From assembly GCA_001604135.1 (NCBI GenBank), contig LVAT01000013.1:186001-250000 (forward strand): a DNA stretch of 64,000 nt, given 5' to 3'. The notes under the pieces were generated by a model, which was given only the letters and a program-made list of their open reading frames with translations, was not told where the DNA came from and made no database searches. Shown piece by piece: positions 9,523 through 57,081 of this stretch. The position numbers and the translations under genes are program-made. The DNA comes from Clostridiales bacterium Firm_14. GTDB lineage: Bacteria > Bacillota > Clostridia > Saccharofermentanales > Saccharofermentanaceae. The stretch's first letter is position 1. Each line of letters opens with the position of its first letter.

Positions 9523-11147
9523 GTAGCGCTGTCGTTATTCATCTTTGACAGCTGGTCACGGCGCTTGACGCAAGGGATCTTGATCTCAAAGCAGGCACCG
9601 CCAGTTTCTTTGTTGTGTGCTTTTACCGTGCCGCCGTGCTCTTCAGCGATCGCAAGTGCCAGTGCAAGACCGATTCCGTGTTTACCGTCTGAGCCCTTTG
9701 AGAAACGCTCGAAAAGGTGATCAGCAACTTCAGGCGCGATACCCGGACCGTCATCTGAGATCTCAAATACAACGGAATCATCTTCCTTGTAGCATCTTAA
9801 GGTAACTGCGGTCTTGCAGTATCTCAGGCAGTTGGAGAAGATGTTTTCGAGACATCTGATGAGATCGTTCTCATTGCCGTAGATATAAGCGTTCCTGATC
9901 TTGATATCGTTGATGATAGCTTTGTCTTCGTGAATGAAGTTGCCTCTGACGCGGTCGATGATCGTATCACAGATCTTTCTGGCATTGATGGTCTGCTTCT
10001 TAACTTCGTAGTTGCCGGACTTGCTCATGTCCATCTTGGAGATGGAAAGGAGGTTCTCAACAAGGCCTGATAAACGTCCCGTCTCATCGATGATGACGTC
10101 TATGGCGTTATTTCTGTCTTCGTCGCTCTCGAAAACCCCGTATTTCAAGCCTTCCGCATAACCCTGGATAGACATCAGAGGCGTTCTTAATTCGTGTGAA
10201 GCATTCTGGAAGAAAGTCTTCTGTTCAATATCGGATTCTTCGAGCTTATAAGCCATCTGGTTCATTACGTCGCCCAATTCGGAGAGCTCTTTACTGACAA
10301 TATGACCCTTGAGGGGCTTAAAGTCACTTTTTGCGATCCTTTTTGCAAATCTCGAGAGCCTCTGGGTAGAGAAGATGAGAGGATAGGTCATGACGATACT
10401 TAAGACGCCGGCAATGATGATGGCAAGTAATGCGGCCTGGATCAACGCAAGTGAGTTGGTCGCCATGAATGAATAATATGAGGCTGAGTTTACATAGACG
10501 CAAAGATAGTAATTCGAGAAAAGATCCTCGATATTTGCTTCAGAATTAGGATCTGATAACTGAATATCGGGATTGTTGGGATCCTGCGGCTCAGTCTCTT
10601 TCTTTGGTGCAAAACCGACGGTTCTGTAATAGACGATGCTTCCGTCGAGATCGATCGTCTGGGTCTTGTTAAAGCTCTCATAGCCGCCTTCCTCGATGAC
10701 CTTATTGATTACTCTCATGGAAGTATTCGTGTAAGAGACAGAGTAATAAGCGTTCGGCCATAAAACGGTGAACTTGCCGGTCTTCTTGTCCAATGTATAG
10801 AGTGCGATGTTTGCCTGGTTCGAGAGGTTATCTGAAGTGGCGATCGAGTTTAAGAGGTAGGCTCTGATGCTGTCATCGGCATTCTCATATGTATTGTCGA
10901 GCTGAAGGGCAAATGCGCTGGTAAGGTTCACGGTGGATTCAACCGCATTATCGAGACGGCTGTTGCACTGGTCATCAATATAATCCTTGAAGATTGATTG
11001 GATATAGATGTTGATGATAAAAACGGCCAAAATGATAATAACGATCTCGACCGCAAAAAAGTGCAGCGAGATCGGTATTCTTATGGCCGATTTATTCTTG
11101 GATGGCTTTTTAGGTTTTAACCGTGCCTTATCAGGCTTTTCAGTCAT
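9519..11147 (-). CDS. Sensor histidine kinase
   Basis: HELRTPLMSIQGYAEGL H-box, NCLRYCKTA N-box, DDGPGI and GIGLALALAIAEEHGG; N-terminal TM and extracellular region. Confidence 0.93.
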   Translation of the reverse strand: MTEKPDKARLKPKKPSKNKSAIRIPISLHFFAVEIVIIILAVFIINIYIQSIFKDYIDDQCNSRLDNAVESTVNLTSAFALQLDNTYENADDSIRAYLLNSIATSDNLSNQANIALYTLDKKTGKFTVLWPNAYYSVSYTNTSMRVINKVIEEGGYESFNKTQTIDLDGSIVYYRTVGFAPKKETEPQDPNNPDIQLSDPNSEANIEDLFSNYYLCVYVNSASYYSFMATNSLALIQAALLAIIIAGVLSIVMTYPLIFSTQRLSRFAKRIAKSDFKPLKGHIVSKELSELGDVMNQMAYKLEESDIEQKTFFQNASHELRTPLMSIQGYAEGLKYGVFESDEDRNNAIDVIIDETGRLSGLVENLLSISKMDMSKSGNYEVKKQTINARKICDTIIDRVRGNFIHEDKAIINDIKIRNAYIYGNENDLIRCLENIFSNCLRYCKTAVTLRCYKEDDSVVFEISDDGPGIAPEVADHLFERFSKGSDGKHGIGLALALAIAEEHGGTVKAHNKETGGACFEIKIPCVKRRDQLSKMNNDSAT

Positions 11148-53782: not shown

Positions 53783-55195
53783 TTAATTTTCGTTTTCTGC
53801 TTTAGAATCCTCAGGTCTCTTCCCTTCAGCCTTGATCAATTTATTGATATATCTGAAGAAGAATAACGGTTCTGCGACTTCGAACGGTATTAATACGATG
53901 ATATTGGCCAGAACTACGCCTATCATGCCGCCAGTGAGCTTTACGAAGACCCAGGCAAGCGGAATATCGATTACTGCTGCGATCGTCATTAAGACCATCT
54001 GCGGCTTGAAATACGAGAAGCCGTTGCCGATGCTCGTATTGACGTTGTGTACCAGGAATATGAATCCTGAGAGCGCGAAAATAACAGCGTACACGTAATT
54101 AACGTCGATCGCTTTGTCCTTAAGCCAGATGTTTACGATCGGCTGCAATACGATAACGATCAGTAATAAAACGATCAATGCAAGCACGCTAAAGCCCAGG
54201 AGCAGCATGTATGTTTTCTTGATCCAAGTGTAGCGTTTCTCGACCTTTGCCTTGGTTACGGCTGACCAGATCGGAATCAAAACGAGCGAACAGATCGCTG
54301 CTACGGAGTTAAATATCTTGAAATAAACCTGGTAAATGACTACGTCTGAAGGTCCGCAGAATGCTGAGATCAGGAATTCGTTGGTCGATGAAATGACCAT
54401 GAATATCAGCTGGAGCCATAATAATGTCAGGCCGATCTTAAGAAGTGATTTAGCCGAATCTTTGGACCAGAATTTGATCGAAGGTCTGATATTTCTGAAT
54501 TTGCCGCAGAAAAGGATCAGACTTACAACGATCAATGGCAGATTTACAGCCAGAATATTGAAATACGAGATCGCAATGATCGATGAAGACGTATCCCCTG
54601 CCGGCAGCAGATTTATTACTATAAAGATGATTACATTAGATAATAATGCCAGAAGATTAACGAGTCCGGACTTCTGGATCGCGTAAAGTATCGACGTTAC
54701 GAGCTTTAAAACGAACTGTATCAGAACGCCGATGAACGCTATCTGTATCGCATATCTTAATACCGGCAAAGCCAGATCTTCTTCATTGATATTAAGGATT
54801 GCATTCCAGTTCAGAAGCTGAATTACAATGCTTCCGATTATGCCGAGAACAACTACTAAAGCAGCAGAAGCGATATAGGTAGAGGAGACTAGCGTCCTCC
54901 CTCCTTTTGTGTCGTTCTCAGCCAGTGCTTTGGGAAGCTTATTACGAAGGCCGTTGCCGATGCCGAGATCGAAGATCAATACCCAGTTAATGATCGATAA
55001 TATTGTGTACCAGACGCCCAGTACATTGTCATTTCCGAAGAATCTGATGTATGCAGGCAGCAAAAACAACGTGAGCAACATCGATCCGCCCTTTACCAGG
55101 AACGCACCCAAGATGTTGATAAAGATATTCTTGTTGTTCTTTACAGCGCCGAAAACACTGTCCTTGCTGATCTTCACGATATTCCCTTTCATCAA
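53783..55195 (-). CDS. Polysaccharide flippase (Wzx / MATE-like)
   Basis: About 12 hydrophobic segments; NIFINILGAFLVKGGSMLLTLFLLPAYIRFFG and DLGIGNGLRNKLPKALAENDTKGGRTLVSSTY. Confidence 0.85.
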   Translation of the reverse strand: MMKGNIVKISKDSVFGAVKNNKNIFINILGAFLVKGGSMLLTLFLLPAYIRFFGNDNVLGVWYTILSIINWVLIFDLGIGNGLRNKLPKALAENDTKGGRTLVSSTYIASAALVVVLGIIGSIVIQLLNWNAILNINEEDLALPVLRYAIQIAFIGVLIQFVLKLVTSILYAIQKSGLVNLLALLSNVIIFIVINLLPAGDTSSSIIAISYFNILAVNLPLIVVSLILFCGKFRNIRPSIKFWSKDSAKSLLKIGLTLLWLQLIFMVISSTNEFLISAFCGPSDVVIYQVYFKIFNSVAAICSLVLIPIWSAVTKAKVEKRYTWIKKTYMLLLGFSVLALIVLLLIVIVLQPIVNIWLKDKAIDVNYVYAVIFALSGFIFLVHNVNTSIGNGFSYFKPQMVLMTIAAVIDIPLAWVFVKLTGGMIGVVLANIIVLIPFEVAEPLFFFRYINKLIKAEGKRPEDSKAENEN

Positions 55196-55313
55196 AACAG
55201 GGGAGCTCCCCTCCCCTATCTTATCAGAGTTGTAATTATCCGATTTTATTTAATTCACGTCAATATAAGCCTAGTAGTTAAGTTGTAGGATTATTCTTCC
55301 ATTGCCATGCATT

Positions 55314-55490
55314 CAACTATACATGTTGAAATAGCACCTGCCTGACCGTCCGTCAAGGGACGGCAAGCCTCATCTAGCGACGCCCTTGACTGCCGCTCAG
55401 TACGCAGGTGCTTGTTTTGTGGTTAAGAGGCTGGAAGCCCAGCCTCGCATCGAACGATGCCGGTCGTAACCGATAATTTGATTACGATTT
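55314..55490. ncRNA. Candidate structured RNA, unidentified class
   Basis: Consecutive inverted repeats: AGCACCTGC...GCAGGTGCT enclosing GTCAAGGG...CCCTTGAC; AGGCTGG aag cCCAGCCT; GCATCG aa CGATGC; CGTAA...TTACG inside CGGT...ACCG. Confidence 0.4.
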
Positions 55491-55758
55491 CAACCGATTT
55501 CCAATATTTCCAGACCGACAAAACATTTCAAATCTACATGCGTTAGCAGACAAGTTTTCGCTGAAAAACCTGCAAATCAGAGCTGAATCTTACAAAAACC
55601 TGCAGATATGTGGACAAAAACATCTGAAAAGCCCCAAAAAAACCTACAAAGAATTATATGTTCAGGCATACCTTATTCTTGCTTTTAATATATATAGTCA
55701 GAAATCGAATTACGAATATAATATCTATGGGATAATAGCACTACTTCGGAGGTTATTT

Positions 55759-57081
55759 ATGAAGCTTAATAACAGAATCATATCTGCGGTTCTTACTGTC
55801 ATTCTTATCTTCTCGGTTGCTTCATGCTACAAGGTAAAACCTGAAGACATAGCGGCGACTGCCGATACTTACGCAAAGTGCGTCCAGTATCTGGATGCCG
55901 AGAGGATCCTTGATAACACTGAAGCTATTGATGAAGCTGCTTCAGAGGCTTTTAGGAAGAAGCTCACGCTCGCTGATTACGAATACGATCAGGCCGACAT
56001 TAAGTCCATCATTGCCCAGACGATCCAGTACACGGTAAATAATGAATCCGTTACTGTTAATGGCAAGTCTGCAACATGCGATGTTACTTTCACAAGACTC
56101 AAATATGAGGCTGCATTTAACAATCTCGTAGGACTTAAGGATGCTCATCTCAAGGCACTTCACGAGTGCCAAGAGACATTCAGCACTACGATCACCATAA
56201 CTTTTAATAAACAGGAAGACGGCCGCTGGATAGCTGCAACGGATACTGTTGCAAAGCTTAATGAGCTCTATTCTTTCCTGGATGCCAAATTTGATTTCTC
56301 GCCTGATACTCCGGACATCTTTGACAGCACTTCATGGCTCTTCAGCAAGGACGGAAAATACGAGAACACAAAGTGCATCGAGCTCGATATCTGGTTCAAG
56401 TACGATCCTGAAAAAGAGTTCTACTATACAGTTTCCAAGGACAATACAGAGCTTTATAAGAGCGAGCCTGAGGCTACGACGGATATCTTCTTCAGAGCAA
56501 AATTCGATAAGTCTCTTGGAGCAAAGACGACAAGCACGGGTTACATCAACCAGGGAATCTATAACATCAAGATCTACAGAAAAGACGGCCTCCTTATGGC
56601 TGATGAGACAACAACTGTTATCGTTAACGGCGCAAAGCCTGCACCTGAGATAACATCAGCACCTAAGGGCGCTTCTTATTCGATCAAGGATCCTTCTTTC
56701 GCTTCTATCAAGAGCCTTGGCTGGTGGGATTATTCAGGTACGCTTTTATCTGACGGCATCTACTGCTTTAATACAAAGACACTGGCATTCTCGATCGAGC
56801 TATTAAGCGATGCTAAGCCTGTTTATTACGCTTATTATTTCGTGCCCGGCGAGAACGCCAATACAAAGAATATCGACTATTCCAAGCCAGTTTATTCAAA
56901 TACGATCGAGCAGTTCATCTATATCGACGGTACGACATTCTTCAACTTCGATTATAGTCCGGCAACGATCGAAGTCGGCACCTATGTCCTTGTCATCGCG
57001 AAAGATGCATTCAGCCTTGATAAGCCCTATGTAACGGCTACATGTAAGATAATTCCTCAGTCTTCTGAAGAATTCCTCTGA
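55759..57081 (+). CDS. Lipoprotein, function unknown
   Basis: Signal peptide with lipobox FSVASCYK; 440 aa. Confidence 0.65.
   Translation: MKLNNRIISAVLTVILIFSVASCYKVKPEDIAATADTYAKCVQYLDAERILDNTEAIDEAASEAFRKKLTLADYEYDQADIKSIIAQTIQYTVNNESVTVNGKSATCDVTFTRLKYEAAFNNLVGLKDAHLKALHECQETFSTTITITFNKQEDGRWIAATDTVAKLNELYSFLDAKFDFSPDTPDIFDSTSWLFSKDGKYENTKCIELDIWFKYDPEKEFYYTVSKDNTELYKSEPEATTDIFFRAKFDKSLGAKTTSTGYINQGIYNIKIYRKDGLLMADETTTVIVNGAKPAPEITSAPKGASYSIKDPSFASIKSLGWWDYSGTLLSDGIYCFNTKTLAFSIELLSDAKPVYYAYYFVPGENANTKNIDYSKPVYSNTIEQFIYIDGTTFFNFDYSPATIEVGTYVLVIAKDAFSLDKPYVTATCKIIPQSSEEFL

Follow-up and report, generated by a model that had tools for sequence, protein, structure and literature searches.

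The hairpins at 55314-55490 of the window (the whole 64,000-nt stretch of DNA that was analysed) are likely to make up a structured end of a mobile DNA element that belongs to the genus; the element would be small, mosaic and MITE/BIME-like, and probably served by a PD-(D/E)XK-like protein. We put the probability of this reading at about 0.7. Since copies of the structure bracket an unclassified nuclease-like gene, its appearance is that of a mobile-element end and not of a free-standing RNA. The first-pass annotation had proposed a structured RNA; there is indeed a covarying family without an Rfam match, but the presence of multiple copies per genome, their convergent pairing, the empty orthologous gaps, the bracketed nuclease genes and the lack of a preference for G-U over A-C in the main hairpin all favour interspersed mobile DNA over an independent RNA gene. 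Intergenic hairpins with strong covariation are in most cases taken as new RNAs; what can tell mobile DNA from RNA here is the number of copies, the geometry of the pairs, the empty sites and the G-U versus A-C count.

The segment lies, as had been described, between two divergent genes: 53783-55195 on the minus strand, which encodes a MatE-like membrane protein (the Pfam MatE match is slightly below the cut-off), and 55759-57081 on the plus strand, whose product is of unknown family and begins with a signal-like stretch. The absence of a coding frame also holds, there being no ORF of at least 40 aa across 55314-55490, and every hairpin listed in the first-pass annotation was found on inspection of the sequence. 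As a unit, the series stands only in part: 55331-55466 is conserved, but the initial palindrome and the last stem, at about 55460-55490, occur in the window copy and not in its relatives. The features are as follows.

55331-55466, plus strand: conserved structured element of the left-end type (match to covariance model R1 at 55329-55467, 126.5 bits; 71 relatives aligned).
55333-55412, plus strand: long hairpin with outer stem AGCACCTGC/GCAGGTGCT, inner stem CCGTCAAGGG/CCCTTGACTG and an apical stem (helices 1-4).
55427-55446, plus strand: second hairpin, GAGGCTGG/CCAGCCTC (helix 5; six of eight pairs changed on both sides).
55447-55460, plus strand: third hairpin, GCATC/GATGC (helix 6; five of five pairs changed on both sides).
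55313-55330, no strand assigned: palindrome TTCAAC/GTTGAA, seen in the sequence of this copy, outside the conserved unit and not in relatives.
55468-55706, no strand assigned: AT-rich arm with half-sites of the type CCGACAAA / CCTGCAAA (three CCKRCAA sites in 239 bp).
55296-55706, no strand assigned: inserted segment, limits approximate, as compared with three congeners (G005, G020 and G025) whose orthologous gap is without it.

In general the unit runs as TAGCACCTGC..(GCCGTCAAGG..CCTTGACTGC)..GCAGGTGCT, followed by a linker with TTNAAG at its end and then by the hairpins GAGGYSG/CSRCCTC and GCATC/GATGC. Many copies start with GTAG, primary sequence is conserved in the family at CCGTCAAGG and CTTGAC, and the inner stem contains a conserved C-T or C-C mismatch that is unpaired in 68 of 70 distinct copies. 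On the plus strand a 281-nt stretch folds at -91.3 kcal/mol (z -5.5, with none of 200 shuffles as good), the minus strand of the same stretch gives z -5.2, and the 136-nt core folded with DNA parameters gives z -4.9. With z at about -5, the hairpins are real and well past chance. Reading them as a terminator was rejected, since the flanking genes are divergent and there is no terminator-like site at the element. We note that at 55695-55722 the end of the insertion adjoins the probable promoter of the plus-strand gene, and that the -35 sequence of this gene is TAGTCA in the window as against TTGACT at the equivalent place in G005; from this difference and the adjoining insertion end, expression of the gene may be altered.

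When the sequence was searched with BLAST, relatives were found both in the window's genome and in congeners. An alignment of ten of these, built with MAFFT and made without fitting to the structure model, has 18 of 36 pairs changed on both sides. Covariance model R1 was then used to collect copies. The window's genome has four strong ones, and 18 of 59 genomes from the genus (Saccharofermentans-type rumen Clostridia) have 1-15 each. When 188 genomes of the order were covered, 25 of those carrying the element belonged to this genus and one to another genus of the same family; beyond these there was a single weak match. In the alignment of 71 copies (A4), which was fitted to the model and hence leans towards the structure, 27 of the 36 pairs are changed on both sides, with 231 double-change cells where shuffles give 61, and the structure collapses when it is slid. 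The pairing is strongly supported by this covariation. No match was found to the covariance models of Rfam 15, on either strand and to E = 1, so that the scan and the homology and covariation check set out in the first-pass annotation both came out as needed for a new family, and nothing on this repeat family was found in the literature searched. There is no match to the element in phages or plasmids, for which reason a phage or plasmid origin was set aside, and a search of viral contigs with one pattern was also without a match.

Some weaker matches were discarded. Those lying opposite strong copies mostly come from reading the palindrome in reverse, and a possible second window copy at 9717-9849 on the minus strand, with 18 bits and a position within a histidine-kinase-like coding sequence, was taken as chance on account of both its score and its place. 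Exact 18-bp matches in many congeners fall in a conserved coding stretch resembling ribosomal protein S9 and are unrelated. A second long hairpin occurs just downstream of the plus-strand element at six loci (L070, L079, L096, L101, L102 and L103), with a GTCAAGG/CCTTGAC core, in opposite orientation and within ACAGATCAGCC/GGCTGATCTGT; it also occurs alone in G070 and G027.

The evidence for mobility comes from empty sites and from the geometry of the copies. About 410 bp present in the window are missing from the orthologous gap of the three congeners, and two other copies (C5, in the window's genome, and L102, in another genome) are likewise missing from relatives. No target-site duplication or clean insertion junction could be read at the empty sites examined, where the junctions are too diverged. 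At one locus (C16) the pair in the window's genome is gene-less, whereas in three relatives the space between the same neighbours holds a nuclease gene in divergent orientation, or what is left of one; the three are L187 (G020, in which the nuclease copy is shortened), L185 (G077) and L180 (G025). All 14 close pairs are convergent, the left copy being on the plus strand and the right copy on the minus strand, and most of them are gene-less. The inner gap is 312-409 bp in pairs without a gene and 938-1017 bp in those with one nuclease gene, and the pair at L105:1507-5372 spans 3.9 kb, with an inner gap of 3593 bp that holds two genes (an 817-aa ORF and the nuclease). Short copies that carry no gene and have terminal inverted repeats are thus dispersed in the manner of MITEs, while the window copy has one end only. 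CCKRCAA has a density of 12.6 per kb in the window arm, of 0.9 per kb in the window outside this arm, and of 8.7-32 per kb inside other gene-less elements, an enrichment that is descriptive only, the motif having been picked after the sequences were read.

The linked protein is 260-270 aa long, is encoded in 77 of 78 genomes of the genus and has no convincing match in Pfam or NCBIfam. It has an E..PD..E-x-G pattern of invariant residues, with E146, D178 and E193 invariant or nearly so, and it is similar to the C-terminal region of PADLOC PDC-S68 (E 2e-7). A confident AlphaFold model (pLDDT 89) has fold matches to several PD-(D/E)XK nucleases (DrdV, viral cap-snatching endonucleases, PvuRts1I, MGME1 and Cas4), although these matches are weak and none is below E 0.01, and we therefore call the protein PD-(D/E)XK-like, a putative member of an unclassified nuclease-like family. 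The named records that encode close relatives are gut and rumen metagenome genomes of Saccharofermentans or Clostridiales, which makes a host of this kind probable for the window too.

A homologue of this gene lies within 400 bp of 27 of the 71 copies, and in 26 of these 27 it is on the inner side of the element; 20 of the 26 inner-side genes run towards the element, and the copy at L118:1863-2824 is the only one of the 27 with reversed orientation to the nuclease gene. Since there are a few nuclease genes per 2-3 Mb, the chance expectation for such proximity is well under one, for copies that were gathered by the repeat and not by the nuclease but that are not independent, some being orthologous between related genomes. 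Where the copies are paired, the other one is found inverted on the far side of the nuclease gene. Gene-bearing elements share their ends with gene-less ones, and the nuclease-like protein would be a candidate transposase. It counts against the mobile-element reading that members of the nuclease family in this genus are for the most part without such a structured end, as do the reversed L118 copy, the weak fold matches, the lack of a readable junction and the excess of G-T over A-C in the two short hairpins. CCGACAA-type half-sites are common to element interiors and to the upstream regions of some nuclease subfamilies, and the promoters of one other subfamily carry TGAGACT/AGTCTCA. In this subfamily (A; L149, L013 and L164, for example) most start codons have two TGAGACT/AGTCTCA sites in the 200 bp upstream, which are a possible operator. 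Many nuclease genes are also found inside locus-specific palindromic repeat arrays, often flanking both sides (L162, L164-L168, L170-L173 and L175), in which the repeated word differs by locus and the layout (half-site, paired half-sites, half-site) is similar; these palindromes are possibly the cognate sites of each protein.

An alternative that we consider improbable is that the unit is a genuine structured RNA carried on a mobile element, either a small RNA or a UTR element that controls the nuclease or is its RNA partner. This would agree with the strong covariation and with the series of several hairpins, a shape that RNA families typically have; also, where a nuclease gene is carried, the element lies directly against the stop end of that gene and would thus fall in its 3' untranslated region. 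The second copy beyond the gene is inverted, however, and the window copy has no adjoining nuclease gene at all. Neither an element-specific promoter nor a terminator was found at the element. A folded RNA is expected to tolerate G-U above A-C, and the two short hairpins do show G-T above A-C (49 versus 28 cells, two closing pairs giving 31 of the 49), but the main hairpin has no such preference, with 13 G-T versus 18 A-C cells as compared with 65 G-U versus 7 A-C in the 41 tRNAs of the window's genome (Fisher p 6e-7). As G-U is no commoner than A-C in the main hairpin, the pairing is probably maintained in DNA, through selection or through correction between the arms, which is still compatible with transcription.

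It is less likely again that the copies are REP/BIME-type repeats moved by a RAYT-type Y1 (HUH) transposase. The imperfect hairpins with a conserved mismatch, the inverted pairing and the intergenic location do resemble REPs and BIMEs (PMC3733652, PMC6006769), and the GTAG at the start of many copies fits as well, but a Y1_Tnp (PF01797) match is absent from the window's genome (G000) and from 13 of 18 carrier genomes, which makes such an enzyme unlikely; moreover the linked gene encodes a different protein, and a unit measures about 135 bp, with three hairpins, and not 20-40 bp. Least credible is that these are inert palindromes without a dedicated enzyme, kept by mutational correction between the arms and linked to the nuclease by hitch-hiking in intergenic hot spots: template switching between arms could give Watson-Crick-only double changes, and the missing junction signature suits this idea, but conserved primary sequence, a mismatch that has escaped correction and a fixed geometry with respect to the nuclease gene, with every close pair convergent, all speak against it.

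If the unit is the end of a mobile DNA element, we infer that a trans-acting protein, most likely the linked nuclease, recognises this end as DNA, either as a single-strand hairpin or as a cruciform, and that it mobilises the element by cutting the folded end during excision or copying; the conserved mismatch may mark the strand. The window copy, with its single structured end and its half-site arm, is probably a derivative that is non-autonomous or has decayed, and it now sits upstream of two divergent genes. We suggest only tentatively that a new class of mobile element is represented here, in which a small PD-(D/E)XK nuclease would transpose three-hairpin DNA ends (single-stranded or cruciform) and nuclease subfamilies would share half-sites with gene-less derivatives. 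An abundant and unclassified nuclease-like family gains a candidate DNA substrate.

Several known systems invite comparison. The BOX, RUP and SPRITE repeats of pneumococci have a modular build. They too are interspersed structured intergenic repeats (PMC3049150), and the element family differs from them in that gene-bearing versions exist. Integron attC sites (PMC6393395) are work-alikes only, being folded single-stranded DNA with a strand preference, whereas no integrase or cassette array was seen beside copies of the element and core-site motifs were not recognised by eye. REPs, BIMEs and REPINs with their RAYTs (PMC3733652, PMC3116915, PMC6006769) share with it the imperfect intergenic palindromes, the inverted dimers and a flanking gene for a presumed mobilising enzyme, although the units of the element are much longer, there are few copies per genome, and most carriers are without a Y1 enzyme. 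From bacterial MITEs (reviewed in PMC10969869) the element differs in that its ends are three-hairpin structures of about 135 bp with covariation, its linked gene is PD-(D/E)XK-like and not a recognised transposase, and no target-site duplication was read; it is like them in being short, gene-less and dispersed, with terminal inverted repeats and longer, gene-carrying relatives.
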